Source of the DNA: Amphibalanus amphitrite
Taxonomy: Eukaryota > Arthropoda > Thecostraca > Balanomorpha > Balanidae
Length of the DNA stretch: 64,000 bases
Direction: 5' to 3'
Assembly: GCF_019059575.1 (NCBI RefSeq)
Contig: NW_024881676.1
Location: 684,501-748,500 of the forward strand
This document shows positions 33,201-64,000 of this stretch, piece by piece; the stretch's first letter is position 1, and every line of letters begins with the position of its first letter. The notes under the pieces are model-generated. The model had not been told where the DNA came from. It ran no database searches and saw only the letters and a list, made by a program, of their open reading frames with translations. The position numbers and the translations under genes were made by a program.

Positions 33201-36200
33201 CAGTTCTCTCCATCAGTCAGCCCACCACTCTGCACACCCGCCTACCTGAGGTCCTCCTCAGTGCAGGCCTGTCTCCGCCGCCGCTGGTAGGGGTCGGAGG
33301 ACGAGGAGGGTGAACGTGGCCGGGCGCCGCCACCACCCTGACAATCACACAGACACCGGTCAGAGTGGTACCGAGGTACACTACCGGGGTTCGACGGTAA
33401 AATGATTGAAACAGCGAGTGACCATCCAAGAAACGGGCCCGGGAAAATCTTAGATACGAACTTCTCAATAGTTTTTTCTTTCTCTGAACTACGCGCTTTT
33501 TCATATGTTGGTTGACATCACTTGATTCTCAATTATATTGTTGGGTAAAGGTTCTAACATATCTGTCTGACGTTTGTACTCTGTATGTAGGCAGAAACTA
33601 TCTTAAGAATTCGAAAAACCCACAGAGCCATCGCACCGGAGGCCACGTCCACTGGCCGTTCCATCTCCTCCCCAGTTTCGCGTGACGCCCCCCCCCCCCC
33701 CCCCCCGGCAGCCCGAGACGGCCTCACCTGGTGTCCCGCCGCTGTGGCTCCCGAGGACCTGCTGCGCTCGAGGGCCGCTCTCGGCTGCGTCTCCCTGTCA
33801 GCGGAGACGCCCGAGCGCCGCTGGTCCGCTCCCCGCTCCGGGAGATCGGTCGAGCCGGGGACGGTGGGACCGCCGTCCGCGGGGGGTCGGGGTGCAGGGG
33901 CCTCCTAGGGACGGAGCGGTGTAGTCAGACGGGGAGAGAGGTGTGAGAGACTGAGATACACCTGAAGACAGGAACGCATACAGAAAACAGGAGGATACCC
34001 GCTACACACAGAGAATGAAGACACTAGAAAAGAAAGATACAGGACAAGCCTCAGCCATGCGCTTTAAGAAGAAAGGGACTACTTACAAGTTACAGGCCTT
34101 GGCACATTGTAATTACTGATAATCACGCAAAAGTAAGAACAACATTAGGATACCAAATACCTATGCAGTGGAGATTACTGCTAAACTAAATGACTGACTG
34201 TCTGTCCTACCTTGCCCACCAGCGCTGCGTCCACCTGGTGTACCCGGCTCTGGGGCGGGTCGGCGGCGGTCCGGGCGGCAGAGGCTGCCTCGTGTGGTGT
34301 GGACGCATCGGCCGGCTCACCGATCACAGCTGCCGGGCACAGAGAGGGAGAGGGAAGTCGTCAGAAGGGAGAGGGAGAGAAGGGCCAGTGAAAACTGCTT
34401 GGCAGTGGTCAGGAGATATAGATCCAGTCAACAATGACAGGGCAAAGTCGGCCAACACAGCGCAGGAGCGGCGCAGAGGATGATAGGATGAGATGACTGA
34501 GTCGATTGAGACGGAGGATGGAAATGACAGGAAGTGGCATACCATGAGGAGGCGTTTAGAAGCTCTGATGCCAGGATCACAGCCAAGCGGTTCGAAATAT
34601 GTAGGACCACCTGTTTGTCTCCTTAACGCAAGATAATTGACTGGATACCGATAAATAGTCCGATACACTACCATCTAAACCGATAAGTCGGGACATGACA
34701 GACGCATGACACCGTATTATCTTGTCGGCTGTGAGACTGAGGACAAACTCACACAATATCGGCCAGGATAAGCCACACAAAGAACTGCGATAAGAACGAA
34801 CGGTTCCGTGAGCTTTGAATTAATAATAAAGAAACACGTACGGGCGTGCGACAGAGCGCATGATCCCACGGAGGCCGGAGCAAAGTAAGAAATGAGCACC
34901 GAATCATCTGACAGTGGTCAGGAGCGGGGGTCGACTGTGTCCGTCAGTGACAGCACACAGGACGCCGCCGAAGGAGCGGTGACATGGCCACGCCACCGCT
35001 CCGGCGCCAGCGTGGACAAAAGATCTCGCCAGCGACCCGTCCGTCCGGAAACACGTTACCGTGAGTTCGAGCACTAAACTTAGTGACAGTGGTCAAGCCA
35101 AGCCACGGTGGAGCTGGTCGGTAGACACATCGACACAAACCTGCTGCCCCTAGCCGCCCACCGGCCACCGGCGGCTCAAGTGGGCCGGCACGCGGCGGAA
35201 CATTTCCGAAAGGTCCACGGCGGGTCGCTGCGTCATGATAAGCGCGCGGAGCGGGCCGACCTGAGCTTGGCGCTGCGCTCAGTCGAGTGGCTGTGCCGCG
35301 TCTGACACTATACCCCTGCCGAGCGGCGTCCGGGAGAGCCGCGAGCATGAACGGCCAGCGTCGCCAAAATTCTGTGATAGTCCTGGAGCCGCGGCGTCAG
35401 GACGCTGCTGAGACAGTGGACAGTGGGCAAGCAGTCACAACTGATACAGTGGACAGTGGGCAAGCAGCCACAGCTGAGACAGCGAACTTCACGGCGTTCC
35501 GGGGCATGCAGCGCTCGCCGCGAGCTGGCGGTGGGGGCCGGGTGCGCTCTCGCAGCCGGCGGCGGGCCGAGCCGGTGCGGCGCACGCGCAGCTCGCCGCA
35601 GCAGCTGCACGACCAGCTGCAGCGGGCTGTGCTCGGTCAGGAGGCGGTGGACACGCTCAGTCTGCTGCAGCGAGGTGCCGACCCCAACCTGCGTGTCACC
35701 GCGCCGCACATCCGCACGCCCCGATCGCTACCCTCCTCGCGCAAAGAGAAAACAATAAAATTTCTAAATCCATCGAAGGGCCCGCGCTTCCGTCATGACA
35801 ACAGTTGGAGCATACGCGACCCGGAGGCTGGCGCCGACAACTACGCCTTCTGGCACACCGAGCACAGAGACAAGGGCGCGCGTATGGAGACGCTACTGCA
35901 CCGGGCGGCCCGAGACGGTAAGGCCGAGCTGGTGCGCGCCCTGCTCGACCACGGCGCCGACGCGTCCGAGCGCGACTGGGCGCAGCGCACGCCGCTGCAC
36001 GTGGCCGCCGCCGCCGACACGCCCGGCGAGGTGCTACAGCTGCTGCTGAGCGCGCCCGGCACGCTCATCGACGCGCAGGACGCGGCCGGCGACACGGCAC
36101 TGCACTGCGCGCTGCGGCAGAAGAACCGGCGCAACACCATCCTACTGCTGGAGGCCGGCGCGCGCGCCGACATACGCAACAAGGGTGGCCGCACGGCGCT

Positions 36201-39200
36201 CAAACACCTGCTCAAGGACTTTCCGCAGGCGCTGGAGACGGCGTTCGACCGGTCGCTGCGCCTGGTGCGGCCGCTCGGCTGGAGCGGACGCGCCATCCAG
36301 TTCGACTACTCGCTGTTCAACCCGTGCCTGCTGGACGACGACGAGAGCTCTTACGTAAGCTGCATGGAGACCCGTCTGCTCAACAGCATCGAAGTTGAGG
36401 CCACGCGCGACCAGCTATTTCTGCACCCACTCTGCCAGAGTTTTCTCAACCTCAAGTGGAAGATGATCTCGCCGTTGTACGTGATCGACATCATCATCTT
36501 CTTCGTGTTTGTCGTCAGCTTCAACGTGTTTCTGTTCGCCGTTGTGGACAAGCGGCGTGCCGAAAACATCACCGACAGCGCCCTAATCAGCAACGACATG
36601 GGGTTCTTCAACACGTCTGACGTCGTCCCGCCGGACCGCCGCGGCTCCGCGGGCATCGACTTCAACGTCACCTACTTCAACATGCCGCTGGAATCCATCA
36701 CATTCTTCATCGTGGCCTTCACCTGTGTGTACATCGACCTGCGCGAGACGATCAAGATGTGGGTGCTCGGCGTGATGCCGTACCTGCGCGGCCCGGAGAA
36801 CGTCATCACGTGGTTCTGCACCTCCACCGCCATCGCCTGTCTGTGCACGGACGTGCTGACGTTCGAGCAGCTGCGTCAGGTGGCCGCCGCCTGCCTGCTC
36901 GCCTCGTGGACCGAGCTGCTGTTCATGTTCGGCCGCGCAGAGTTCGCCTCCATGCACGTGATGCTGTTCGTGACGCTGATCCGCACCCTCTCCGTGTTCA
37001 TGATGGTCTACACGGCCATCACGTTCGCCTTCACCAGCAGCTTCTTCGTCCTGTTCTGCGACAAACCGGACGAGTTCGATGGCCGCTTCGACACCATGAC
37101 CAGCGCCTTCTTCACCACGGTGGTGATGTCGATCGGCGAGCTCAACTACGACCCGACGCAGCTGCACGGCAGCAAGGGCGGCTACGCCATCTACCTGCTC
37201 TTCATCTTCTTTATGCTCATCATCACCATGAACGCTATGGTCGGTATGGCCGTCAACGACACACGCGACATGGCCGCCAAGGCCGAGATCAAGCTGCACA
37301 AAAAGTACATCGAGTTCGCGCACCTGTTCGAGCGCCACCAGCGGTACCGGCGGCGCAGCTGTCTGTGGCGGATCCTGCCCTCTGTCAACATCACCCTGCT
37401 CGGCATGCTGCCCGAGGGCCGGCTGGCGGCCAGCTGGCACGTGCTGCCGGGACCGCAGCTCGGCTGGCGCCACCGCTGGCGGGTCATGTTCCCCGGCAAG
37501 GAGGGCGGGTACGCGGCGCAGCGCACCAAGGGCACTGAACAGCTGCGTCAATGGCTGGCCCAGTGGCCCGGCCTGCTGCGGCAGGCGGCGCGTATCGTCA
37601 TCATCAAACACCACGACAGCTGGGACCAGCCCGTCGAGCCGGGCAGTGAGGACTTCCAGGAGACGGAGACGGACGGACCGCGCCGAGCGGACAAAGACGC
37701 CGGGAAGGACAGCACAGACAGCGCCGAGAGCAGCGGCATATCCAGTGACAAGGACATCGCGCCAGCCGGCGCCAAACGAGCCTCCCTCCGACCGGAGGAT
37801 GCCGATCCTGAGAGCGGCGGCGAAGAAGGGGAGAAGGACGGGGGAGAGGGAGAGGATGAGGATGAGGGGGACGGCGGCGGGGCGCCCGACCAGCTGGTGG
37901 AGCTCCGGCACGCCGTGCTCGACCTCAAGTGTCAGCTGGGTAAGATGCAGGATCAGCTGGCGCACATAGGCCGAGCCGTCTCCAAGATCGCCTACACGCA
38001 ACAGTCGACGGTCATACACACGTGATCAGACGTCAGCAATGGTGTCAGAGCGTGATTAGACGTCATGAGACATCATAAGTGACGTCGTTGGCGTACGTTA
38101 TCGGTGCTTGACTGGTGAGTGGGACAGGCGGCAGCTGGAGTGATATGTGCTGCCCGGTGACGTGGTTAAGAACGTTAAGCCGGTAAATGATATCATATTC
38201 GTGGTGTTGTTACGATATTTCGTTGATAGAGCAAAGTACAGATACTTGTCAAGGAACTGCAAAGTACAGTTTCGCCCTTGTGTCGATAACCAATCTGATA
38301 GTGCCGGGAGATCAGATGGAGACTTTACACTGCCAGCTGCAGGGCAAGATTATGCATTCTGCGGCTCCTTCGGCAATCGGGGGCGTTGGGTCGTTTTTTA
38401 CCATTGAATACCATCATCACCAAATATCCAACCTGAATCGTGATGCTGAATGTTATGGGATGCGTGCAATTAGCAATCGAGCGAAGTTTGGTAATTTTAT
38501 GATTTATTTACATGAAGGCATGATGTAATGTTAAGCATGTTTAACGGTTTAAAAAAATGCATGAAATCGTCAACTTTCATCGAACGAAATGTAGCAGAGA
38601 CTGTACACAAAAGTTAAATGATAAGTGAAGTTTTCAGTGACTTGGCTTATGAAAAACGACGTAAAAATGTATTATTCGTATGTGGGAATAAGTGTTTGAA
38701 ATAAACACCTACTATGCATTTATCATTACTCATTTACAACCATAAGGCACTACTACGACGGTATAAAATGTTTTCAATCGAAAGTGAACAGCGCTCACCA
38801 AATCATAAACTGGATTCGTTAGATTCGATGACGAAGATTCGATAACGATGGCGAGAGATTCGACGAGATTCAGTTGGGTTAGGTGCCTGCATATTTGACG
38901 ATAACAGATTGAAAAAAACGTAACTTTGACAATCACTCTCATGGGGGCAATGTTGAGTCCGTGCGACAGAGAACAAAACAGGGAAACGTCTACATACACG
39001 ACAAAAATAAACTGTTTCACGTACCGAGGCATATGGCAGCTACATGCACGGAGTACGTAAGAATTGAGACGAAATGAATTACAAGCTTAGCGGGTATTGG
39101 AGATTATAATATTGATGGAGATTACAATATTGAATAATCGGATGTAATCGGAGGCTATCATTGAACACAGTTAAGTTACGCGTGGATGTCTACAACACCG

Positions 39201-48815: not shown

Positions 48816-50412
48816 TCATCGTCGGGCGGTCGTCATCGCCGGACAGACTGCAGCCTTGGCCGCACGGGCGAATTGGGCGGGGCGCTGTTCGATGACACCG
48901 GGAGGCAGACTGTTGAGTAGCGCCGCGGCCCGGTAGGCGAACCGTCGCTTGCCAGTCTCGAGCCGCGAGCGTGGAAGGTGGAAGAGGTGGTCCTGTCGTG
49001 TGGATCTCTCTCGCGCGTCACTGTTATTCGTGAAGATGGCAGCTAGTGCTTCGGGCTCGCCGTTGCTTATTATTTTCTGCGCAGTTACCATGGTTTTAAC
49101 ATCGGCCATAGCTTTCGGAGGCATCCATCCGAGTGAATCGCGGAGGCCAGAGACGTGATCGAATTTCCGGCGGCCGAATATGACCCGTGCTGCAAAGTTT
49201 AGAATTTTTTGGAGTCGGTCGAAGTTTTTCTGGGAGCCGTTTCCATATACAGTGAGGCAGTACTGGACGCGCGAGATGACGAGTGCAGTCACGATCGTTT
49301 TGAGGATACCGTCTGGGAGGCAGTGTCGTGCGTGGGAGAGGCCGATCAGTACGCCCGTGCAGCGACGGCTCAGCTCGGCCACGTGTGCTTCCCAGGTGAG
49401 TGCGCCGTCGAATACAACACCTAGGTTTCCCACCTGCGCGCACGGCAGGAGCTCAGCGTCACGGAAAGAGATTTTGAAGCGAGGCAGGTTACGTAGGTTT
49501 TGTCGGCTACCGAATACCATCAGTTGAGTTTTAGAAGCGTTGACTTTCAGGGCGTGTGCGCAGAACCATGCGTTAAGTGACTCTAGCGATGCCTCCATGC
49601 GCGAGATGAGACTCCTGATGTCGTTGCGTGGGCCGCTCACCAATATCTGGGTGTCGTCTGCGTACTGATAAGCGGTGGCGTCTCCGGCAAATAGTGAGAG
49701 GTCGTTGGAGAATATAGTGAAGAGGAGGGGACCCAGAGCCGAACCCTGGAAAACTCCTACGGTGTTTGGGAGCGGTCGAGAGGTTATCTTACGGCCGGTT
49801 TTGTCTTTCAGGGATACACTCTGCGTGTGTCCCTGAAGATAAGCGGAAAACCAGGAGGTCTCAATACCGTAGATTTGGAGCTTTTTGACAAGGAGTTCAT
49901 GGTCAATGACGTCAAAACATTTGCTGAGGTCTATGAGGCATAGCATTGAGATCTCACCCCTATCGGTGGCGGCAAGGATGCTATCTGTGACTGACAGCAG
50001 CGCAGTCTCAGTGGAGTGTCGGGGGCGGAATCCGTGTTGGGTAGACGAAAGAAGGTGGTTATGGGTGAGATAGTGATAGAGCTGCTGATGGATTACACGC
50101 TCGATGATTTTCATGATTACGGGAACTAGGGAGATCGGTCTGAAATTGCTGGGGTCAGATGGGTTGCCAGACTTGAAGATCGGTTGAACGATAGAGTGTT
50201 TCCAGGGGTCAGGAATGTCGGAACGGGTTATTGAGACGTTGATGATGTGTAAAATGATGTCGCCAATAGTTTGGAAGCATACTTTTAACATGCGGATGCA
50301 TATACCGTCAGTGCCACGCGCGGCAGAGTTTCGCATGTTGAACACTGTGAGTCCGAGTTCCCCGAGAGTGATGGCCCTCGGCCTAAAGCTGCATGCGCCG
50401 ACACGGGGTAGA
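48816..50412 (-). CDS. LINE ORF2, reverse transcriptase part
   Basis: The frame is open from the LTR junction to the stop at 48,816. RT motifs in order: FRPISLVPVIMKIIERVIHQ, GFRPRHSTETALLSVTD, LIDLSKCFDVIDHELLVKKL, GVFQGSALGPLLF and the catalytic YADDTQI. The C-terminal region has LSHARHCLP...LVISRVQYCLTVYG and the FNSLPPGV-like end ALLNSLPPGV found in CR1/L2/Jockey polyproteins. The usual GVPQGS motif reads GVFQGS, an odd change next to the active site. The 193-base 3'UTR follows. An internal ATG lies at 50,345, but the real frame continues upstream. Confidence 0.9.
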
Positions 50413-50416
50413 CGTA
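50413..50416. repeat. Target-site duplication CGTA, left copy
   Basis: CGTA directly before the LTR element; the same four bases follow it at 63,304-63,307. Removing the element and one copy restores a continuous LINE frame, which confirms the boundary. Confidence 0.85.
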
Positions 50417-53400
50417 TGTAGCGGGGTTTCGCGGCGTTGCGGGGCTAACCGGGCAGTGTCTTTCGATAGTGATGGAGAGCAAGCTAACCGGACAGTGTCT
50501 TTCGTTATTGAGGGGTGAGAGCTCCGTCGGCGCGCTCCATGAAGCCCATCGCTTTATCCAGCCCCTCGCGAACCCGTTCCGACTCTGACTCTATCTTTCC
50601 GGGGCGATCAATCATCGGAAACACATAGGCCAGGGTTAGGGAATGGGAGATAATGATAAATGTTAATCAATTACCCTCGATCATATTGGTATAGAAAATC
50701 AACTCTATTTAACAAAAAGTCCCACTCTCAAACAACAGCGCCCTTCCTAGCTTGAGGGTCATCTCCCACCAGATATATGTATCAATCATTCGTCCATTTA
50801 TCCATCCCCTTACAACCATGTCATTCGTCCACTTATACCTCGTAATTTACCAGAGTTGACCATCTCCGGTCCCTCCCCTTTTTTCCTAACTTCCCCCGGT
50901 GGTGCTAGGGCGCGCGCAAAGTCGTTATCGAGTCATTGGCCTTAAATGTCATTTAACCGTTATCCCTTCATAACCACAATGTTCCGTACATCAGACAAAC
51001 GCTTCATAATGCTCACGCTACACAATTAGAGATACGACCCACCACATATTTCGGCACTCGACCTTCGCGTTACGTGACTTATTGCGGTCCGTCCCATCAC
51101 CATGTCGAACTACCTACACAAAAAAAACATAAATGTCTTCGGCCAGCGGCTCCGAGACTACGGCTCGCAGGGCACTGTGTAGTCCGGTTTCCGCGGGGGA
51201 CTTATTTGAAATTTGAGACCGGGGCTGGGTAACTAAGGTCCGTCCGGGCTGCCTGCGTCGTCTCCGTATAGCCGCGGTTTTCGGGCCAGCCCCCGGCGAC
51301 CGAAAGGGGTTAGTCGTTCGTCGGCTTTACACGAATCCATGACTACCAGTTTATGCCAAATTGCCTATAATAAAACGAAAACTAAGCGTACCACGGCCCG
51401 CAATGGGCTTATCTAAAATTTGAAACCGGGCTGGGTAACTAGGTCCGTCCGGGCTGCCTGCATCGTCTCCGTATAGCCACGGCTTTTGGAACAGCACCGG
51501 CGACCGAACGGGTAAGCCTCCGTTGGCTTCACACAATCCACGACTACCAGCGTTATAGGTGCCCGAAGCCCTATCTATCCGTTGCTGGTAGTTAAGCTGT
51601 CGTCACAGACCTAACCGAAATGACCGCTGCACGGCCGGAGTAAATCGACTGACAGCGGGGTGGCCAGTACCGACTTACCGCGATCACCCGACTCGCATGC
51701 TTTGGTATTTAATGTTCACCCCCGTCCTGCAGCATCACACGTTTCTTCGCGGGACATTACTTAACCGGCGGCATACGTCTCCTCGCTGGGACGCCTGGGG
51801 TCCTAACCATCTCCGAAACTACCTACGTCACTTATCGAATGTCATCCTGCGCTGATCACTCAATGGACCGATAGCGGACCTAACCTATCTTTTAAAACCG
51901 GGCGGGGTCACTAGGTCCCTCCGGGCTGCCTGCATCGTCTCCGTATAGCCACGGCTTTATGGGGCCCGCGCCGGCAACCGAACGGATTAGCCTTTGTCGG
52001 CTATGCACTCATCCTCAATAATCGATCCTCAACTCGCTCTCACCCTTTCTCTTCACTTCGCGACTTATTGCACGTATCCAGGGCTTACCCAAGCGAGGCC
52101 TACTATTTAAGTGGGGTCTATCCGAGCTGAGCTTCATTCAGGAAATCCGATTCCTCTACGTGTACAGTCTTCAATTCCATTTCACTCGCTTCTTATCTCC
52201 CTCCTAACCCATGGCCGCGTCGGTGGACTTTCCACGCACAGGGGCGTGACGTGCATCATCTATCTCCCCGGTTCCGTCCCTTGCAGTGTCCCCAGTGTCC
52301 ATGTGGGGTAAAGTTACAAATATTTCGTGTGCGGCAAGGTCTATGTGTGCTCCTTATATTTGGACCGCTGGATAGGGTAGAGCGCCAGGAAATCCGCTGG
52401 CGAGGGCACTTGGGAGTCAACCGGAGAAGCTCCAGTATCGGTTGGGCTAGGGAGGTCCCGTATGTGTTGTGTATAATCGCTATCATTTGGACCGTGGGAT
52501 AATTTGGGGAGGATGGAGTGCCAGGAAATCCACTGGCAAGGGCACTTAGGAGTCAACCGGAGAAGCTCCAGTATCGGTTAGGCCAGGGAGGTCCTGTATG
52601 TGTTGTGTGTAATCGCTATTGTTTGGACCGTGGGATAATTTGGGGAGGATGGAGTGCCAGGAAATCCACTGGCAAGGGCACTTAGGAGTCAACCGGAGAA
52701 GCTCCAGTATCGGTTAGGCTAGGGAGGTCCTGTGTGTATTGTGTGTAATCGCTATTGTTTGGACCGTGGGATAATTTGGGAAGGATGGAGTGCCAGGAAA
52801 TCCACTGGCAAGGGCACTTAGGAGTCAACCGGAGAAGCTCCAGTATCGGCTAGGCTAGGGAGGTCCTGTGTGTGTTGTGTATAATCGCTATTGTTGGACC
52901 GTGGGATAATTTGGGGAGGATGGAGTGCCAGGAAATCCACTGGCAAGGGCTTTTAGGAGTCAACCGGAGAAGCTCCAGTATCGGCTAGGCTAGGGAGGTC
53001 CTGTGGGTGTTGTGTGTAATCGCTATTGTTTGGACCGTGGGATAATTTGGGGAGGATGGAGTGCCAGGAAATCCACTGGCAAGGGCACTTAGGAGTCAAC
53101 CGGAGAAGCTCCAGTATCGGCTAGGCTAGGGAGGCCCTGCATGTGTTGTGTATAGTCGCTTTGTGCACTGTGTAAACTCAACAGATAAAGAGAACTGATC
53201 GTTGTAAATTACTCTGGCCGGACACCTTGGAAACGACCTCTTTCCTGACTGTGGGTTAGCATATGGCCTTTTATGCTCCATCCTCCGATCCCTGCCCCTT
53301 CAGCACTACTCACACTCGTATTTCAATATTTACAAGTCCCATTTATTTACATACTCCGACGCAACACCTTAAATTCCCTTACAAGTCAAATTTAAAGGAA

Positions 53401-54755
53401 ACATTCTGGGCCCAGGCCGCCCATCAACTGAGCCCCACAAGCCGCGCGGTGCGGTACACAGTCGCCCGTCCCTTTCCCGACTCCCCACGGTGCATAATCC
53501 CCTCCGTCCGCTTAAATCACAACGGGGCGCCAGACGACTGAAGAGGGCCCACGTCGGCACGCGTGTCGCACTACGCGCACAGTTACATAATTGATCGAAA
53601 TCGAATTGTGAAATTAAGCTACCTAGACTGAAAGTCCCAAGAATAAATTTAAATACCTAAGCTGAATGGCCTAAAATATTGCGGACGACACCTAAAAGGG
53701 GAATATAATGTGGCTCACATAGCAGTAACGAAAGGGGGGGGGGGTTACTTGGAGGATTTAGGGACTAGGTGCGCACCCGTGTTCACCGCGTGACCTTACT
53801 TGAGATGGAGTCGCTGACATGATGGTCGTGACCGTCCAGCGCCCGGCCAGGCGGCCGGAGCCGCCGCCGGCGCCGTGATGCCTGCCGCTGGTCTCTCGTG
53901 GGCTGTCCACGGTGTCAGATGTGAGCCGAGAGCGAAGAGCGGCGTGGGATCCGTCGTCCGAGAGAGAGCCAGAGAGCGTGGAATGCGTCGTCCGAGAGAG
54001 CTTTTCAGTTCCGTTTCATCAACTTATACTTCTGATGACGTCATACTTCAGAGGGCCGGGCAGCATCACCTTGTCCAATCTCCGTCCTCCATTCTCAGAA
54101 GCTGCACTCGGCTCCGCCCTCGAAAGTTCGTGATTTGCTGACAAAGTTCGGTTCCCCTCCGGCCATGGCAGTCGCACCCTTTCACGCAGCGATCGGGTGG
54201 AATTCGCCGCCGGCGCTCACGGCGCCTGAGGCGCCAGGTGGCGGGCCTGGCCCTCTGCTCCCCTTGTTTTGAAGTCAGGTCCGGCCAGATGTCCTATATT
54301 TTGTCGTTGGCGACCGAGTTCCATTTCATCCTGTTTTCGTACAACCCGGGTCGGTCTCCGCTCCCCTTTCTTGTTTTGGTTCAAATCAGGGCCGGTCTGC
54401 ACTCCCCTCTCCTTGTTCTCTGGCGGGGTGCCGAGCGTGGGACAGAGTCTTGTTTTCCAAAGGCTAAACTGATTAATGGCTCGAGGCTGGCAGAATGGCG
54501 CGTTTCGGTATGCTCTTTGTTGGCTTCAGATCCGAGTTCTCATGAAGTGGGGTGGTCATCTATAGAGGACCCCTGTTTGTCAGAGCCGACTTCGCCGTCT
54601 GCGTGGACGCCAGCTGGGACGGAGAGAGGGTATCACAGCCGATTTAGTCGGCTGACCGTGTCTGTGCGGCGCTCGCAGATGGCCGTGTTTCAGCTTGTGG
54701 CACAGCTTGCAGTTCAGCATGAAAGATGAAAAAAATGTAACGCATCTGCGTTACA
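50417..54755 (-). repeat. LTR, left copy (3' LTR in element sense), 4,339 bp
   Basis: It starts TGTAGCGGGG and ends GCGTTACA on the + strand. It contains a 39-bp tandem pair near the start, three related modules of about 150 bp (51,197-51,350, 51,408-51,550, 51,880-52,010), a 136-bp tandem array (52,356-53,161) and, at the far end, a 20-bp palindrome. No coding region is convincing. Confidence 0.85.
52356..53161. repeat. 136-bp tandem array in the left LTR
   Basis: Six copies of a 135-136-bp unit, marked by CCAGGAAATCC at 52,385, 52,521, 52,657, 52,793, 52,928 and 53,064. The first copy is the most diverged and the inner ones are close to identical. Confidence 0.92.
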
Positions 54756-57084
54756 TTTTCAGACCTCTTTTTATAGTCGCGCCCCGCGACTAAACGTTTG
54801 AGAGGCGGCTTCTGCCGTGCTATTTGGTGCCGTTTCGTCGTGTTTCTTGGTGACTTCTGTGACGAGAGTGGGTGGCCGTCTTCTAAAGGATCGGTAGTTA
54901 TTTTAACAGGAGTGTTCGGTTGGGGAGGATGGTAGGACGAGCTTGGATGATTAGGACATAAGGATTGCGGGTTTTTGTGTCATTGCACAGTATTTCGGGC
55001 CATTCTTACATTTCAGAAATAAAATATCACACAATATCTCGTTAAACTCCACCTACCTCGCCAGAAGTTCACGCAAAGCAATGGAAATTGTTGACGCGTC
55101 ACGATACAAAAAAAAACCTACACGCACACATAAATACAATGATAGATTTGGTTACTCCAATTCAGATCAGTTTAACAGATAACATACCAGTGCAGACTTT
55201 GGTGTGCCTGAGCCGAGCCTGGCACCTGACGGTGGCTCCACGAGCGAGCCACGATAACCCCGGTCCGGGAAGGCCTTTGTTGGCGAGCTGGCGGGCGTCC
55301 GCGATTCGGTCTCGAGCCGGCCGGCTGCTGCTGTAGTTGTGTCCAGTTCCGGATTTTCCCAGTCTCGTAGTTGTAGTCGTGGTTCTCGCCGACCATCGAT
55401 GTCGAACGCAGCCGCCCTGGCGAGCTGTCAGGGCTGACTACGGTCGGCCCAGAACTCGTCGTCTGTGGCTGAGCCTGGGTTGGACGTGGCTCCAGCGCAC
55501 TTCCGAGCTGTTTCTGCTGGTCTGGTGGCCGGCTGGGCTGCGCTCTGGTGTAGATTGCTGATGATGGTTTGGCTGTCACATCCAGCGGGAGACGTGGTCC
55601 CACTGCAGCCTGCTCCATGATTACTGGCTGCGATGTTGAGCACTTCGCTCTGACCAGCTGCGGATCTCGCGAGTCGGTCTCGAAGTCTGGAAAGTGGGAG
55701 CTGCCTGCAATTGATGAACGGCGGATCACCACCTGCCAGTGCGGCGGGCGGCCCAGAAATCGGCCCGCGGACTGGTCCGGTCCATTTCAGCTGTCTATGT
55801 TGGTCAAACAGGCAGCATTCAGGTGCCCCCTAATGGTCGTGTCTAATGATGCTCCAAAGGTGATAGTAGTCGTCACCATCACCCAAGTTGCTGTCTGATT
55901 TTGTTGTAATACCTGCAATGTTGATTGCTAACAACATTTTAGTTATTCGGTATATCCGTCCCTCCTTCTCCTTCTTCCGGTCTTTGTTGTTATTTATTTC
56001 CGGCGTTGCCTTCATTTTGAGTTCCATTGGGCACTGGCTGTCAGGCAGTCGCTGTTGATGACTACCTTTTTTCTGTTCTTCTGTCGGCGTCTCTTCTTCT
56101 CTGTGCTGCACGTTTGCTCTTCCAAATGGCTTCGTGATGTTACAGTTCTTCAATCATTTGCATTTTACTCTTCTCAGCTGTCGTTTCCTTTCTGTGATTG
56201 CATGTATCCATTGCCATTTAGTATCAACGTCGTTTCCATCGGTATACTACTTCAATGTCTTCTTTCTCGCCGTCACTCGGCTGTGTGTTGTCCTTCTTGT
56301 TCTTATCGCAATTCAGCTTTCCATACTGCTTCTAAAACGTGCCTCAATCATTTACAATCTGCGCTGTCACCTTCATTTCAGTATGCTGCGTCCTATTGGT
56401 GACTTTTGCCTTCTTCAATCCTGATTTTCATTTCAGCACATTCAATTTCTTCATAGCGTCGTGCTCAGTCGTATTTTTAGTACGTTCATTGGGTTCGGCA
56501 ACATACATGACTGCCTGTTCTGTAACGGGGGTTTCCGTCACGGAGAACGGCTCGTGGACGGTTGCCGGTCTCCTGTCAGTTCTCTCCAGAGGCGGGTAAG
56601 TCCACGGGTCACACATAGGTCACTGCACCTTTTTGGTATAGGATGGGTACAATCTCTTAAAAATTGGGTTAAAATGGCATCCTCGGTGTGATTACTCTAA
56701 CTTTGGATCACGGGATTTCACTCAAGGTTAGGGTTCGCTAGATGTGAGCCACATAATTTTAGTTAGCGATACCTGTAGCCGAAAAAAAATATACCAAGCC
56801 CGCTCGCCCGTCACTTAAAATTGATCCTCGATTTACCCTTATCGCTTCATGATATATACACCCTCCAGCAATCCACGCTTTCTGATTTCAATCAAATCAA
56901 TTTAACCCGAGTAACGCTGCACTGAGTGACCAGCTCCCACTGCATCTAGCTCAGACATAATATGTTTTCTCACTCACGCTCGCATTTCCTCTGAAATTTT
57001 AGCTTTGGGTTCGGCAATGCACGTCGGTCCACCGACTTCATGTTTCCTTTGATTGATCCTGCCCCACGTTGGGTGCGCCAAATC
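54756..57084 (-). other. Internal region of the LTR element
   Basis: 2,329 bp. The longest minus-strand frames, of about 186 and 107 codons (55,172-55,732 and 55,830-56,153), are Pro/Gln/Ser-rich or Lys/Glu-rich and match no retroviral domain I know. The rest is AT-rich and pyrimidine-rich. The part next to the right LTR carries the primer-binding-site-like sequence. Confidence 0.7.
57061..57080 (-). other. Primer-binding-site-like sequence
   Basis: On the minus strand TGGCGCACCCAACGTGGGGC follows the LTR end after GATT. It starts with TGG, the complement of the tRNA CCA end, and resembles TGGCGCCCAACGTGGGG-type sites seen in arthropod LTR elements. The primer tRNA is not assigned. It sets the element's orientation. 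Confidence 0.7.
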
Positions 57085-59023
57085 TGTAGCGGGGTTTCGC
57101 GGCGTTGCGGGGCTAACCGGGCAGTGTCTTTCGATAGTGATGGAGAGCAAGCTAACCGGACAGTGTCTTTCGTTATTGAGGGGTGAGAGCTCCGTCGGCG
57201 CGCTCCATGAAGCCCATCGCTTTATCCAGCCCCTCGCGAACCCGTTCCGACTCTGACTCTATCTTTCCGGGGCGATCAATCATCGGAAACACATAGGCCA
57301 GGGTTAGGGAATGGGAGATAATGATAAATGTTAATCAATTACCCTCGATCATATTGGTATAGAAAATCAACTCTATTTAACAAAAAGTCCCACTCTCAAA
57401 CAACAGCGCCCTTCCTAGCTTGAGGGTCATCTCCCACCAGATATATGTATCAATCATTCGTCCATTTATCCATCCCCTTACAACCATGTCATTCGTCCAC
57501 TTATACCTCGTAATTTACCAGAGTTGACCATCTCCGGTCCCTCCCCTTTTTTCCTAACTTCCCCCGGTGGTGCTAGGGCGCGCGCAAAGTCGTTATCGAG
57601 TCATTGGCCTTAAATGTCATTTAACCGTTATCCCTTCATAACCACAATGTTCCGTACATCAGACAAACGCTTCATAATGCTCACGCTACACAATTAGAGA
57701 TACGACCCACCACATATTTCGGCACTCGACCTTCGCGTTACGTGACTTATTGCGGTCCGTCCCATCACCATGTCGAACTACCTACACAAAAAAAAACATA
57801 AATGTCTTCGGCCAGCGGCTCCGAGACTACGGCTCGCAGGGCACTGTGTAGTCCGGTTTCCGCGGGGGACTTATTTGAAATTTGAGACCGGGGCTGGGTA
57901 ACTAAGGTCCGTCCGGGCTGCCTGCGTCGTCTCCGTATAGCCGCGGTTTCGGGCCAGCCCCCGGCGACCGAAAGGGGTTAGTCGTTCGTCGGCTTTACAC
58001 GAATCCATGACTACCAGTTTATGCCAAATTGCCTATAATAAAACGAAAACTAAGCGTACCACGGCCCGCAATGGGCTTATCTAAAATTTGAAACCGGGCT
58101 GGGTAACTAGGTCCGTCCGGGCTGCCTGCATCGTCTCCGTATAGCCACGGCTTTTGGAACATCACCGGCGACCGAACGGGTAAGCCTCCGTTGGCTTCAC
58201 ACAATCCACGACTACCAGCGTTATAGGTGCCCGAAGCCCTATCTATCCGTTGCTGGTAGTTAAGCTGTCGTCACAGACCTAACCGAAATGACCGCTGCAC
58301 GGCCGGAGTAAATCGACTGACAGCGGGGTGGCCAGTACCGACTTACCGCGATCACCCGACTCGCATGCTTTGGTATTTAATGTTCACCCCCGTCCTGCAG
58401 CATCACACGTTTCTTCGCGGGACATTACTTAACCGGCGGCATACGTCTCCTCGCTGGGACGCCTGGGGTCCTAACCATCTCCGAAACTACCTACGTCACT
58501 TATCGAATGTCATCCTGCGCTGATCACTCAATGGACCGATAGCGGACCTAACCTATCTTTTAAAACCGGGCGGGGTCACTAGGTCCCTCCGGGCTGCCTG
58601 CATCGTCTCCGTATAGCCACGGCTTTATGGGGCCCGCGCCGGCAACCGAACGGATTAGCCTTTGTCGGCTATGCACTCATCCTCAATAATCGATCCTCAA
58701 CTCGCTCTCACCCTTTCTCTTCACTTCGCGACTTATTGCACGTATCCAGGGCTTACCCAAGCGAGGCCTACTATTTAAGTGGGGTCTATCCGAGCTGAGC
58801 TTCATTCAGGAAATCCGATTCCTCTACGTGTACAGTCTTCAATTCCATTTCACTCGCTTCTTATCTCCCTCCTAACCCATGGCCGCGTCGGTGGACTTTC
58901 CACGCACAGGGGCGTGACGTGCATCATCTATCTCCCCGGTTCCGTCCCTTGCAGTGTCCCCAGTGTCCATGTGGGGTAAAGTTACAAATATTTCGTGTGC
59001 GGCAAGGTCTATGTGTGCTCCTT

Positions 59024-59829
59024 ATATTTGGACCGCTGGATAGGGTAGAGCGCCAGGAAATCCGCTGGCGAGGGCACTTGGGAGTCAACCGGAGAAGCTC
59101 CAGTATCGGTTGGGCTAGGGAGGTCCCGTATGTGTTGTGTATAATCGCTATCATTTGGACCGTGGGATAATTTGGGGAGGATGGAGTGCCAGGAAATCCA
59201 CTGGCAAGGGCACTTAGGAGTCAACCGGAGAAGCTCCAGTATCGGTTAGGCCAGGGAGGTCCTGTATGTGTTGTGTGTAATCGCTATTGTTTGGACCGTG
59301 GGATAATTTGGGGAGGATGGAGTGCCAGGAAATCCACTGGCAAGGGCACTTAGGAGTCAACCGGAGAAGCTCCAGTATCGGTTAGGCTAGGGAGGTCCTG
59401 TGTGTATTGTGTGTAATCGCTATTGTTTGGACCGTGGGATAATTTGGGAAGGATGGAGTGCCAGGAAATCCACTGGCAAGGGCACTTAGGAGTCAACCGG
59501 AGAAGCTCCAGTATCGGCTAAGCTAGGGAGGTCCTGTGTGTGTTGTGTATAATCGCTATTGTTGGACCGTGGGATAATTTGGGGAGGATGGAGTGCCAGG
59601 AAATCCACTGGCAAGGGCTTTTAGGAGTCAACCGGAGAAGCTCCAGTATCGGCTAGGCTAGGGAGGTCCTGTGGGTGTTGTGTGTAATCGCTATTGTTTG
59701 GACCGTGGGATAATTTGGGGAGGATGGAGTGCCAGGAAATCCACTGGCAAGGGCACTTAGGAGTCAACCGGAGAAGCTCCAGTATCGGCTAGGCTAGGGA
59801 GGCCCTGCATGTGTTGTGTATAGTCGCTT
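59024..59829. repeat. 136-bp tandem array in the right LTR
   Basis: The same six-copy array as at 52,356-53,161, in the same order with the same variant units. The array therefore predates the reverse transcription that produced both LTRs. Confidence 0.92.
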
Positions 59830-60498
59830 TGTGCACTGTGTAAACTCAACAGATAAAGAGAACTGATCGTTGTAAATTACTCTGGCCGGACACCTTGGAA
59901 ACGACCTCTTTCCTGACTGTGGGTTAGCATATGGCCTTTTATGCTCCATCCTCCGATCCCTGCCCCTTCAGCACTACTCACACTCGTATTTCAATATTTA
60001 CAAGTCCCATTTATTTACATACTCCGACGCAACACCTTAAATTCCCTTACAAGTCAAATTTAAAGGAAACATTCTGGGCCCAGGCCGCCCATCAACTGAG
60101 CCCCACAAGCCGCGCGGTGCGGTACACAGTCGCCCGTCCCTTTCCCGACTCCCCACGGTGCATAATCCCCTCCGTCCGCTTAAATCACAACGGGGCGCCA
60201 GACGACTGAAGAGGGCCCACGTCGGCACGCGTGTCGCACTACGCGCACAGTTACATAATTGATCGAAATCGAATTGTGAAATTAAGCTACCTAGACTGAA
60301 AGTCCCAAGAATAAATTTAAATACCTAAGCTGAATGGCCTAAAATATTGCGGACGACACCTAAAAGGGGAATATAATGTGGCTCACATAGCAGTAACGAA
60401 GGGGGGGGGGTTACTTGGAGGATTTAGGGACTAGGTGCGCACCCGTGTTCACCGCGTGACCTTACTTGAGATGGAGTCGCTGACATGATGGTCGTGAC

Positions 60499-62372
60499 CA
60501 TGGGCGGCGCCACCGGGGGGGACGGGGGGGACAGGTCCCCCGCTTTCGAAAGTTTGGGGGGTACAGTACCCCCCTATCGGCGAGGCCCGTTCAATAGTGG
60601 ATAATAATGCATTTTAGAGTTATCCGTCGCATTTAATGCATCGTTGGTTAATCAAGGCAGGTTCTGAATAAAGATTGCTGTTGGGATGTATCGCAGGGGG
60701 TCCTGGCCATCTGCAAAAGGTGTGGAGCTGTGATGCCTGTAGTTATAAGGTGATCGGCAGGGCCTCGGGGATCGTGCCCCCCCCCCCTTTATGGGGGCGC
60801 CAGGCAGGGTTATTACCTCCCCACCTCACTGCCAGACCCCATTGCCGACAAAACCAAGGTTACTGAAATTCCATAGATTTCCGTTACTATATGGATATTT
60901 TCCATTCCTAATTAGTCAAATTCAAGCATGGCAGTTCTACCACAGGAACCATTTGAAATCTATTGCCATTTAACCCCAGCGCTTGTGGGGAGAAGTGTTC
61001 GGATAGATCACAGGCAGGACCAAAAAAGCACGCAGTAGCCCAAGACCTTATAATTGGGTAGCATCGGCTCCCTCTCGTCAAGGGGCTCGATAGCACTCGT
61101 TTTTTTTTTTCTTCTGCTTACCGAAGAGATGCAAAACTAAGTTCGGTCGGCGGCCGAACGGCTGGGGGTCTAATCGAGCCCCACCTCCCCTTCTTACGTC
61201 AGCGGCTGTGAAAATGCCATTACCAGCTGTTGAAACATGGCAGTTGCTTTTGCATGAGTGCACGAAGGGTTTAAGGTACGTGATACGTGAAAGGTTCTAC
61301 ATGAAAATTGAGATACACCAGCTTATCAAATTGTGTTCACTGTGGTGCGCTCGGTTTTACCTTGACTAGTCTTTGAATTCTGGGGTGAAACAGACCAGTC
61401 AAGAAACCTGTTCCATAAGGAGAGCCACTAATGCAAAAGAGATGAGGGATGAGGTTTCCAGAGACCTTCATTACCTCCCAAAGGGGGTGCCCCGCCATTT
61501 GCCAATCCCTGCTGTAGTTGTTACGATTGGAGGGAGGGTGAATATGAGAACGACTGCAGGTCGTGCCAGCTCGATCATGACGAACACAATGGTGCCGACA
61601 TCACAGCTCTACTGCCATTTTTGACGAAGTTAATCAACAAGGACCGGAATCCTACCCTGGGGCATTTCACCTGCAGAGGTCGTCGGACCTGAGACCCTTT
61701 CACTCAATTTTTTTTTCAACGGTGCATGCGCTCGTTTTTCCCGCGAAGCTCTCGGTAAGTAACATCCATCAGAAAGTGTGATCAAATAACGGCTGGTGAC
61801 CTTCCATGACCTAGCATGACCTTTTGAGTGACCACGCACCGATGACATGACCACTGACGGCTAGCCAGTAGCTGCACCCTGCCCGTTGCATATGGAACAG
61901 GTGGTGATGTCATGATTCTGAAATTATATTGCAGTTTTGGCGCACTTGACAGAGCAGAAGACATTCCCACTTTTCCTCCATGACTATAGACGTATGATGG
62001 TGAAGCCATGAAGCTGACCAGACGTAAGATCGAAAATTTGAAAGTACGAAACGTAAGAATAGTTGGCACTGCTACTCATACCTAAGCAATTCGCAGCTTG
62101 TAGGAAACCAGCTTTGAGTTGGCAAGACTACAAATTTTGATTTAGAGGCAAGGATGCTTGAAAAGGTGATCGATCTTAGGTGTCCTAGGATAAGTTTGGA
62201 AACGGGATGCACCATTCGATGTGTTTTGGGCTTTGCGGGCTTTGCCAAGTTTCGCGGCGTTACGTGCCTCGTTTTTTTTTCATGCACGATCAGTATCTAC
62301 TCTTGGGATTTTCGGTCATGGCAAGCCCCCGTCCCCGTCCCCCCCTATCGAAAATCCGTGGCGCCGCCCCTG
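60499..62372. mobile_element. Non-autonomous hAT transposon, 1,874 bp
   Basis: The ends CATGGGCGGCGCCAC and (reverse complement of the right end) CAGGGGCGGCGCCAC form a 14/15 terminal inverted repeat. They are flanked by the perfect 8-bp duplication GTCGTGAC at 60,491-60,498 and 62,373-62,380. The other LTR shows the empty site with a single copy. Both subterminal regions have G-rich tracts (GGGGGACGGGG). No transposase (DDE, hATC, BED finger) was recognised, so it depends on a partner. It must be younger than the LTR element it interrupts. Confidence 0.9.
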
Positions 62373-63307
62373 GTCGTGACCGTCCAGCGCCCGGCCAGGC
62401 GGCCGGAGCCGCCGCCGGCGCCGTGATGCCTGCCGCTGGTCTCTCGTGGGCTGTCCACGGTGTCAGATGTGAGCCGAGAGCGAAGAGCGGCGTGGGATCC
62501 GTCGTCCGAGAGAGAGCCAGAGAGCGTGGAATGCGTCGTCCGAGAGAGCTTTTCAGTTCCGTTTCATCAACTTATACTTCTGATGACGTCATACTTCAGA
62601 GGGCCGGGCAGCATCACCTTGTCCAATCTCCGTCCTCCATTCTCAGAAGCTGCACTCGGCTCCGCCCTCGAAAGTTCGTGATTTGCTGACAAAGTTCGGT
62701 TCCCCTCCGGCCATGGCAGTCGCACCCTTTCACGCAGCGATCGGGTGGAATTCGCCGCCGGCGCTCACGGCGCCTGAGGCGCCAGGTGGCGGGCCTGGCC
62801 CTCTGCTCCCCTTGTTTTGAAGTCAGGTCCGGCCAGATGTCCTATATTTTGTCGTTGGCGACCGAGTTCCATTTCATCCTGTTTTCGTACAACCCGGGTC
62901 GGTCTCCGCTCCCCTTTCTTGTTTTGGTTCAAATCAGGGCCGGTCTGCACTCCCCTCTCCTTGTTCTCTGGCGGGGTGCCGAGCGTGGGACAGAGTCTTG
63001 TTTTCCAAAGGCTAAACTGATTAATGGCTCGAGGCTGGCAGAATGGCGCGTTTCGGTATGCTCTTTGTTGGCTTCAGATCCGAGTTCTCATGAAGTGGGG
63101 TGGTCATCTATAGAGGACCCCTGTTTGTCAGAGCCGACTTCGCCGTCTGCGTGGACGCCAGCTGGGACGGAGAGAGGGTATCACAGCCGATTTAGTCGGC
63201 TGACCGTGTCTGTGCGGCGCTCGCAGATGGCCGTGTTTCAGCTTGTGGCACAGCTTGCAGTTCAGCATGAAAGATGAAAAAAATGTAACGCATCTGCGTT
63301 ACACGTA

Positions 63308-64000
63308 CATTTAGATCAGTATCGTTGTTTTGGGTACTCAGTTCGGCGGCAATGCGGGGCCCGACAGAGACGAAGAAGGAGTTCAGATCGTCGGGAGATA
63401 GATCGGGCTGAATATTTGGACCATCTTTCTTTCCGGCGATCACTGATTTGATGCTTTGCCAGACTTTGTTTACCCCACGCTCGCTGATCTCGTTTTGGAG
63501 GACGTGACGGCGGTCTCGGCGTAAGGCGGCACGGACGGAGCGGTTAAGAGCCTTATACTCGGGAGACTCGCGGCCTAGCCGACGTAACGCGGAGCGACGT
63601 CTGGACATAATGTCGCGGGTGGCGGCAGATACAGGGGGCGCTGTAGGATTTCTTATCAGCACATTTTTGAGGGGGGCATGGTCGTCGAAGACAGGTAGAA
63701 AGTTGTCTAAAAAGACCTGCCACTTGTCAGCAACAGACGTCGAGTTATAAACTTCCTGCCAATCGACACTCAGCAGCTCTTGGTTGATAGAGTGAACGTC
63801 CGCTTGGTTAAGTGATCTAGATTGGATGACAGTTGGTTTTAGGCGCTGCTTAGGCACGTCGACGGTCACGTGGATGAGTTTGTGTGGGCTGAAATGGCAA
63901 TGGACTACGCTATAAGAACGCACAAATTTTCGGTTTTGTACAATGCACACGTCCAAGAGAGAACCGGTAGTGAATGTTGATGTTGTCACGAGTTGATCCA
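63308..64000 (-). CDS. LINE ORF2, endonuclease end and linker
   Basis: It encodes TTSTFTTGSLLDVCIVQN, the T-x-SLLD-I-T motif of the APE-type endonuclease, then HFSPHKLIHVTV where the catalytic SDH motif is expected (SPH here, so the Asp is not conserved). A basic linker follows (MSRRRSALRRLGRESPEYKA, RRDRRHVLQNEI, NKVWQSIKSVIAGKK, FFVSVG), typical of the region just before RT. The piece ends at the LTR insertion after DLNV. The 5' end is outside the window. Confidence 0.85.

Follow-up and report, generated by a model that had tools for sequence, protein, structure and literature searches.

Our results indicate that the barnacle Amphibalanus amphitrite harbours, in a window of 64,000 nucleotides (contig NW_024881676.1, positions 684,501 to 748,500 of assembly GCF_019059575.1), a non-autonomous long terminal repeat (LTR) retrotransposon of the large retrotransposon derivative (LARD) type. 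The element lies at 50413-63307 and, judging from the sequences compared here, most likely depends for its mobilisation on an envelope-bearing Ty3/gypsy family, acting in trans, with which it shares its terminal signals. It has the structure of an LTR element, a recombinant core and terminal signals that recur in a gene-carrying family, and its insertions are documented by 4-bp duplications of the integrase type, an empty site and solo LTRs. A first, sequence-only reading of the window had proposed a LARD-like, non-autonomous element, a proposal now borne out by the gene-less core, the multi-copy family, the target site duplications (TSDs) and the coding relative.

Self-BLAST of the window revealed two direct LTRs of 4339 and 4337 bp. 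Positions 50417-53833 align with 57085-60499 at 99.82% identity (2 mismatches, 3 gap openings), and 53823-54755 are identical to 62371-63303 at 933 of 933 positions. The LTR termini read TGTA...TACA, with CGTA directly outside each outer end. The near-identical repeats of about 4.34 kb, the TG...CA ends and the 4-bp duplication described in the sequence-only reading were thus recovered by self-BLAST and by reading of the borders. Its interpretation as an LTR element also stood, with two corrections: the sense strand is the minus strand, and the right LTR is broken by a separate insertion of 1871 bp, an event later than the element itself. About 515 bases of this insert recur at 95.7% at another position in the LTR of copy C48 (L024 2513-3023), in a comparison from which BLAST rows below 100 bp were dropped. 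The U3 (unique 3') end of the LTR (54736-54755 and 63284-63303) is a near-perfect palindrome, TGTAACGCAGATGCGTTACA, and two copies of the coding partner have TGTAACGCAGATGCGCCACA. AATAAA and TATA-like motifs also occur in the LTR.

The primer-binding site (PBS) adjoins position 57084 and the polypurine tract (PPT) lies at 54756; therefore, the element reads on the minus strand. On this strand the LTR end CTACA is followed by GATT and then by TGGCG[CA]CCCAACGTGGGGC, a PBS of the tRNA-Lys type, and on the other side AAAAAGAGGTCTGAAAA precedes TGTAACGC. Two kilobase-scale LTRs with TG...CA ends and a TSD, together with both a PBS and a PPT, are what is expected of a LARD, the PBS of the window having a 2-nt insertion. 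An exact-pattern search found three host tRNA-Lys gene ends that read GCCCCACGTTGGGCG and fit the canonical site TGGCGCCCAACGTGGGGC; ARAGORN found no tRNA genes in the window. The PBS comparison had 21 rows, which correspond to 19 distinct copies (two rows repeat the same copy; the distinct count was made by hand). The PBS is canonical in 6 of the 19, and a 2-nt insertion, CA or TA, is present in 13, that is, in the window and 12 of the 18 other copies; one copy of the coding partner (C332) also carries an insertion, and that of C638 is TT. A variant tRNA behind the insertion is unsupported, given that the three host tRNA-Lys ends found are canonical.

The host assembly that was searched comprises 807.55 Mb in 2644 contigs. 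The window core matches at least 46 stretches, and at least 32 besides the window are full length at 88-91% identity, among the 40 of 122 candidates that were scored. The pattern joining LTR end and PBS occurs genome-wide at 85 places and that joining PPT and LTR start at 92. A script paired 78 of the 85 PBS junctions with a PPT junction, which leaves 7 PBS and 14 PPT junctions unpaired. Seventy-one of the 78 pairs span cores of about 2.2-2.8 kb that fall into several size classes, as in a multi-copy and structurally uniform LARD family, and seven are longer, from 3.4 to 10.1 kb (core lengths from this pairing are one base short, the window being printed as 2328 for a true 2329). Exact 4-bp TSDs were read in five of seven complete copies, the window included (CGAG in C1, CTTA in C607, TCAG in C1717 and GTTA in C1028). 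Ten copies had been fetched, six with both outer ends; C293, C662, C320 and C48, with one end only, stand outside this count. Because other copies have the same borders and different TSDs, the structure of the element is not due to chance. Paired LTRs gave matches of at least 99.7% in eight of ten copies and 98.15% in C1707, and none past the filter in C293 (only rows above both 400 bp and 97% were kept).

Solo LTRs and empty sites, for which the sequence-only reading had suggested a search, were both found. Solo candidates were chosen where the match stopped at the LTR end, and the two ends of each were read (C200 and C945, for example, are outside the sample); all ten have exact 4-bp TSDs. 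They represent seven distinct sites, as the solo LTRs of C921, C2298 and two of C2423 have a common flank and thus go back to a single insertion. Allowing at most 2 mismatches, the genome contains 303 instances of the U3 end; once two per PPT junction (2 x 92) are deducted, about a hundred remain for solo LTRs and fragments, an approximate figure in which the LTRs of the partner are also counted. The flanks of the window element, joined with one CGTA (404 bases), gave 41 rows, of which 32 align over the whole query at 97% identity or higher, 7 of these being printed as 100% (40 of 143 candidates scored). The target is a repeat that flanks the element at 48819-50416 and 63308-63998 on the minus strand and has many near-identical, uninterrupted copies in the genome. 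The left flank has a Pfam match to RVT_1, the frame of the right flank has no Pfam match, and longer joined flanks hold one frame open over 369 codons; the target is thus a repeat with a reverse transcriptase (RT) frame, by inference similar to a long interspersed nuclear element. The sequence-only reading had suggested a new non-autonomous family, and the junction counts and the TSDs of the complete copies show a multi-copy family of constant borders; the outcomes that it named as fatal, namely differing borders, absent duplication, and an assembly or segmental duplication, did not occur, the borders being constant, the TSDs exact in five of seven complete copies and all ten solo candidates, and the empty sites present. 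Tandem arrays of LTR-core units were also observed, at C185:620780-652702, C76:429322-454608 and C1547:103840-113356. Judged from the junctions, they hold 5, 4 and 2 cores, respectively, in one orientation and with one LTR length between cores, and recall the Cassandra arrays of plants, as these are presented in the consulted part of PMC7215508.

The coding relative sharing LTR ends and PBS, which the sequence-only reading had proposed to look for, was found among the four junction pairs longer than 7 kb. C307 (10.1 kb) and C332 (9.2 kb) carry genes; C802 is a LARD core split by an insert, and C900 shows matches to the LARD core. The Pfam matches in the frames of C307 and C332 are Retrotrans_gag, zinc knuckle, aspartic protease, RVT_1, RNase H, Integrase_H2C2, rve and Baculo_F, with gag scores of 24.0 and 23.7 against a cut-off of 24.1 and the zinc knuckle likewise below its cut-off. 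The order protease, RT, RNase H and integrase in the pol frame of C307, together with gag, is that of Ty3/gypsy elements, and the envelope gene (PF12259, Baculo_F; E 3.1e-27 in C332, 6.8e-13 and 9e-11 for two pieces in C307) is a feature of errantiviruses. The envelope frame is interrupted in one of the two copies, and a PDB search with one envelope frame returned two weak fusion-protein matches (fusion protein E 8.8e-5). An 801-base RT piece matched six loci at 90-100% (C332, C201, C638, C80, C307 and C17) and others at no more than 72%, with all 21 candidates scored; gene content was read in C307 and C332, and C80 and C17 are unread. C201 and C638 have ends of the same type as the LARD, so that four of the six RT loci show its end signals. 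The 71 gene-less cores are in more than tenfold excess over these six loci.

The LTRs of the partner, with lengths worked out by hand, are longer still. In C332 they occupy 112688-106176 (5', 6513 bp) and 97018-90504 (3', 6515 bp) and are 99.95% identical over 5831 aligned bases; this element, the one partner copy tested for a TSD (GCTA), is about 22.2 kb in all. In C307 the 5' LTR covers 363490-369657 (6168 bp), and the 3' LTR matches over 1706 bases within the fetched stretch. The PBS is canonical in C307 and C201 and has a 2-nt insertion in C332; a tRNA-Lys PBS and long LTRs are features of the Osvaldo/Woot lineage. Both C307 and C332 share with the window the U5 (unique 5') end, the leader, the last 186 nt of the core and the U3 end. 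The tandem arrays in the partner LTRs differ from that of the LARD (160 bp x 8.9; units of 37-74 bp). Over a 1.8-kb LTR stretch, the LARD is 93% identical to C307, and C307 and C332 are 81-83% alike there, save for a 211-base piece at 91%. This difference suggests that LTR sequence was exchanged between LARD and partner. A copy of a sister family, C110 (1021600-1043500), has an RT 71% alike and a canonical Lys PBS, and its LTR ends differ. The first 2858 bases fetched for C110 are found again, at 100%, in a second LTR, whose end is beyond the fetched stretch, and the LTR of C110 would be at least about 5.9 kb, provided that nothing is inserted before the PBS. Giant LTRs may thus be a trait of the partner/C110 group in this host.

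Compared site by site, the core of the window copy combines sequence from two subfamilies and is a recombinant. One subfamily consists of C1 and C662, the other of eight further copies; the two are 89% alike, and the window copy is 92-93% identical to both. At the 245 sites that discriminate C607 from C1 in this comparison, the window agrees with C607 at position 11, with C1 at 24, and then with C607 at 107 consecutive sites (59-1063). It agrees with C1 at 1074 and with C607 at three sites to 1089. From 1124 to 1932, runs of 52, 18, 12, 1 and 23 sites agree with C1, interrupted by two C607 sites and two of a third type, and beyond 1932 the pattern of C607 and C1 is mixed. Of 22 LTR blocks, 20 are 97.6-100% identical between the window copy and C607, and the final two 94.4% and 96.8%; against the LTR of C1, identity drops to 54-89% in nine blocks of the middle. 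For C823, whose outer LTR start is absent from the stretch used, the last columns of that alignment carry no meaning. The mosaic would be explained most simply by a template switch between two RNAs packaged together, with gene conversion as the alternative. The sequence-only reading had supposed that such long LTRs must serve a function, such as template switching. The mosaic core is naturally read as template switching. Long LTRs occur outside the gene-less form as well, those of the partner being longer.

The core of 2329 bp has no coding capacity, as in other LARDs, and is shorter than the 3.5 kb quoted for plants. The absence of a recognisable gag-pol, already noted from the sequence alone, was confirmed: Pfam gave no match for three of the four distinct frames of at least 150 codons in the element (the fourth, 62189-62686, crosses the insert edge and was outside the scan), and no core frame is conserved. 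Six of 11 cores retain an open sense-strand stretch of 199-207 codons in roughly the same position, and in the other five it is broken. Substitutions within it are distributed over the codon positions as 19/21/30 or 18/23/29 between subfamilies, and it contains indels of 1, 2, 4 and 10 bases, lengths that are not multiples of three. This pattern argues against a protein, despite a mild third-position excess.

In the proposed mechanism, the LARD RNA would carry the cis signals (LTR ends, tRNA-Lys-type PBS with leader, PPT) and no genes, while Gag, protease, RT/RNase H and integrase would be supplied in trans by the partner family. The Gag of the partner would package LARD and partner RNAs together, its RT would be primed at the Lys-type PBS, and its integrase would recognise the ends common to both elements. 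The long LTR, as promoter, terminator and source of homology for template switching, would have been inherited from the partner lineage, not evolved for the gene-less form. We infer the action of the partner family, the co-packaging and this inheritance from sequence comparison, in which the long LTR is best seen as inherited. Several observations weigh against this explanation. Two of the seven complete copies, C1707 and C693, have no TSD. The 2-nt insertion in the PBS mismatches the host tRNA-Lys genes found, and copying primed by a tRNA should erase it. Between LARD and partner, identity at the U3 end and the PPT side is just 75-80%, and the open stretch is kept in six cores. Moreover, the assembly holds 167 exact Lys-type PBS, which means that other Lys-primed families exist, of which a single sister copy (C110) was read and has different LTR ends.

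These last points bear on the alternatives. The helper could be a different Lys-primed gypsy family, the C307/C332 type being merely a cousin, as the many Lys-type PBS and the modest likeness at the U3 end and PPT side would allow; this is nevertheless unlikely, given that, of the four cores above 7 kb at the 85 LTR-end and PBS places, C307 and C332 carry the genes and C802 and C900 show LARD core sequence (C18, C1019 and most others are unread), and given the 93% identity of the 1.8-kb LTR stretch to C307. It is very unlikely that the gene-less copies are decayed or internally deleted forms of the coding element that do not themselves transpose. The homology of LTR ends and core ends to the coding element fits such an origin, and the LARD family may have started as such a derivative that was then amplified; however, the middle of the core, about 2 kb, has no match to the partner pieces at the nucleotide level, the only level compared, and the same core stands at many sites with near-identical LTR pairs.

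A core that carries a functional RNA or a short protein, which would make the element more than a passenger, is highly improbable: the tight size classes of the core and the open stretch retained in some copies speak for it, but the stretch is broken in the others, shows no clear codon-position bias and has accumulated frame-shifting indels. A segmental duplication or an assembly artefact can be regarded as practically negligible, because the flank shared by four solo LTRs, copies of a single insertion, is outweighed by the seven distinct solo sites, the different TSDs of five complete copies and the empty site. Mobilisation in trans by the envelope-bearing partner thus remains the preferred explanation. 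A doubtful, though possible, extension of it would make the LARD a satellite that travels in the particles of an envelope-bearing, retrovirus-like element. Under this reading, template switching would exchange LTR and core segments and so keep the LARD matched to its helper, with the homology for exchange supplied by giant LTRs, which in two host families reach about 6 kb or more. If true, transfer of a gene-less element from cell to cell or from one individual to another would become possible. With a LARD and a coding family of common terminal signals present in one genome, three questions become amenable to test: the cis signals on which a helper depends, the reasons for the growth of LTRs to 4-6.5 kb, and the means by which gene-less elements stay in step with their helper, for which a recombinant is visible here.

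Features of the element in the window (coordinates on the forward strand; strand of the feature where given)
Feature	Position	Strand	Basis
TSD CGTA, left copy	50413-50416		read beside LTR; single copy kept in empty-site query
TSD CGTA, right copy	63304-63307		read beside LTR
3' LTR (sense orientation), 4339 bp	50417-54755	-	self-BLAST; other copies with same borders
5' LTR (sense orientation), 4337 bp plus 1871-bp insert	57085-63303	-	self-BLAST
Internal core, 2329 bp, without conserved reading frame	54756-57084	-	11-copy comparison, codon-position and indel test
PBS, tRNA-Lys type with 2-nt insertion	57061-57080	-	motif reading and copy comparison
PPT, purine-rich tract AAAAAGAGGTCTGAAAA adjoining 3' LTR	54756-54772	-	92 such junctions genome-wide
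Leader of about 80 nt, 91-93% to two coding-partner copies	57003-57084	-	nucleotide comparison
Last 186 nt of core, about 75% to two coding-partner copies	54756-54941	-	nucleotide comparison
U5 end of LTR, 91-96% to two coding-partner copies	50417-50472	-	nucleotide comparison
U3 end of LTR, 79-80% to two coding-partner copies, first 15 nt identical	54693-54755	-	
LTR stretch, 93% to LTR of partner copy C307	50483-52268	-	nucleotide comparison
136-bp tandem array, 5.8 units, 3' LTR	52380-53164	-	
136-bp tandem array, 5.8 units, 5' LTR	59048-59832	-	
Recombination breakpoint region, core subfamilies B (C607) / A (C1)	55961-56022		sense positions 1063 to 1124
Later 1871-bp insertion in 5' LTR, 11-bp duplication TGGTCGTGACC on both sides	60500-62370		

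Elsewhere in the window, a 927-codon open frame on the plus strand (35242-38022) encodes ankyrin repeats and an ion-transport domain, similar to a transient receptor potential channel. In the host assembly, TTAGG tracts amount to 9,894 overlapping 30-mers (both strands counted), and many of the listed ones are internal to contigs; the tracts are in keeping with an arthropod but not decisive.

Errantiviruses (gypsy and relatives) have gag, pol and an F-like env, and gypsy LTRs of about 0.5 kb are unlike those of the partner. By features, not by tree, the partner resembles them in gag, pol, F-like env and the 4-bp TSD of the tested copy. The LTR of Woot is reportedly 3.6 kb. In the consulted part of one study, the Osvaldo lineage of Culex, to which Woot is linked, has a Lys PBS, LTRs of 997-2055 bp and mostly 4-bp TSDs (PMC3286476), features that the partner shares in its tRNA-Lys PBS, long LTRs and 4-bp TSD. 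The partner differs in its 6.2-6.5-kb LTRs and Baculo_F-type envelope, again by comparison of features and not by tree. Troyka, described in the available portion of PMC12440569 with CG...CG ends and a 3-bp TSD, is excluded for the family of the window, which has TG...CA ends and 4-bp TSDs.

Gene-less LTR elements have been named in arthropods before. The excerpted text on Culex records 38 non-coding LTR families without a master copy and one LARD-like element found by others (PMC3286476); like the barnacle family, these are gene-less elements with tandem repeats, but their LTRs are 208-315 bp in four table rows, the repeats stand between the LTRs, and a master copy was not recovered. As far as the portions consulted go, LARDs are listed in the honey bee (301 in a table) and in the whitefly (6 lineages) (PMC4028053, PMC9143410), and terminal-repeat retrotransposons in miniature, such as PbTRIM of ants, are likewise gene-less LTR elements of animals, but below 1 kb (PMC3532108). 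The sequence-only reading had suggested that the element may represent a new non-autonomous family, as no well-described arthropod family with LTRs longer than the internal part was known to it. As a category, LARD-like elements had been named in insects already (PMC3286476, PMC4028053 and PMC9143410, in the parts consulted), and searches of open-licence papers listed no described LARD family of an arthropod together with its coding partner; the novelty is the identified coding partner and the LTR sizes. A literature search for giant animal LTRs returned nothing, which shows little.

To our knowledge, the helpers of LARDs have rarely been pinned down. LARDs of barley and its relatives were reportedly described by Kalendar et al. 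in 2004. Plant LARDs are quoted, in the part of PMC3532108 consulted, with LTRs of about 4.4 kb and cores of 3.5 kb, and that text gives them, as of 2012, as reported solely from plants. Barley-type LARDs and the barnacle element are alike in LTR size, in the non-coding core and in the lack of genes (PMC3532108, same portion). The barnacle element differs in its arthropod host, its Lys-type PBS, a core shorter than one LTR, and an envelope-bearing partner in the same genome.

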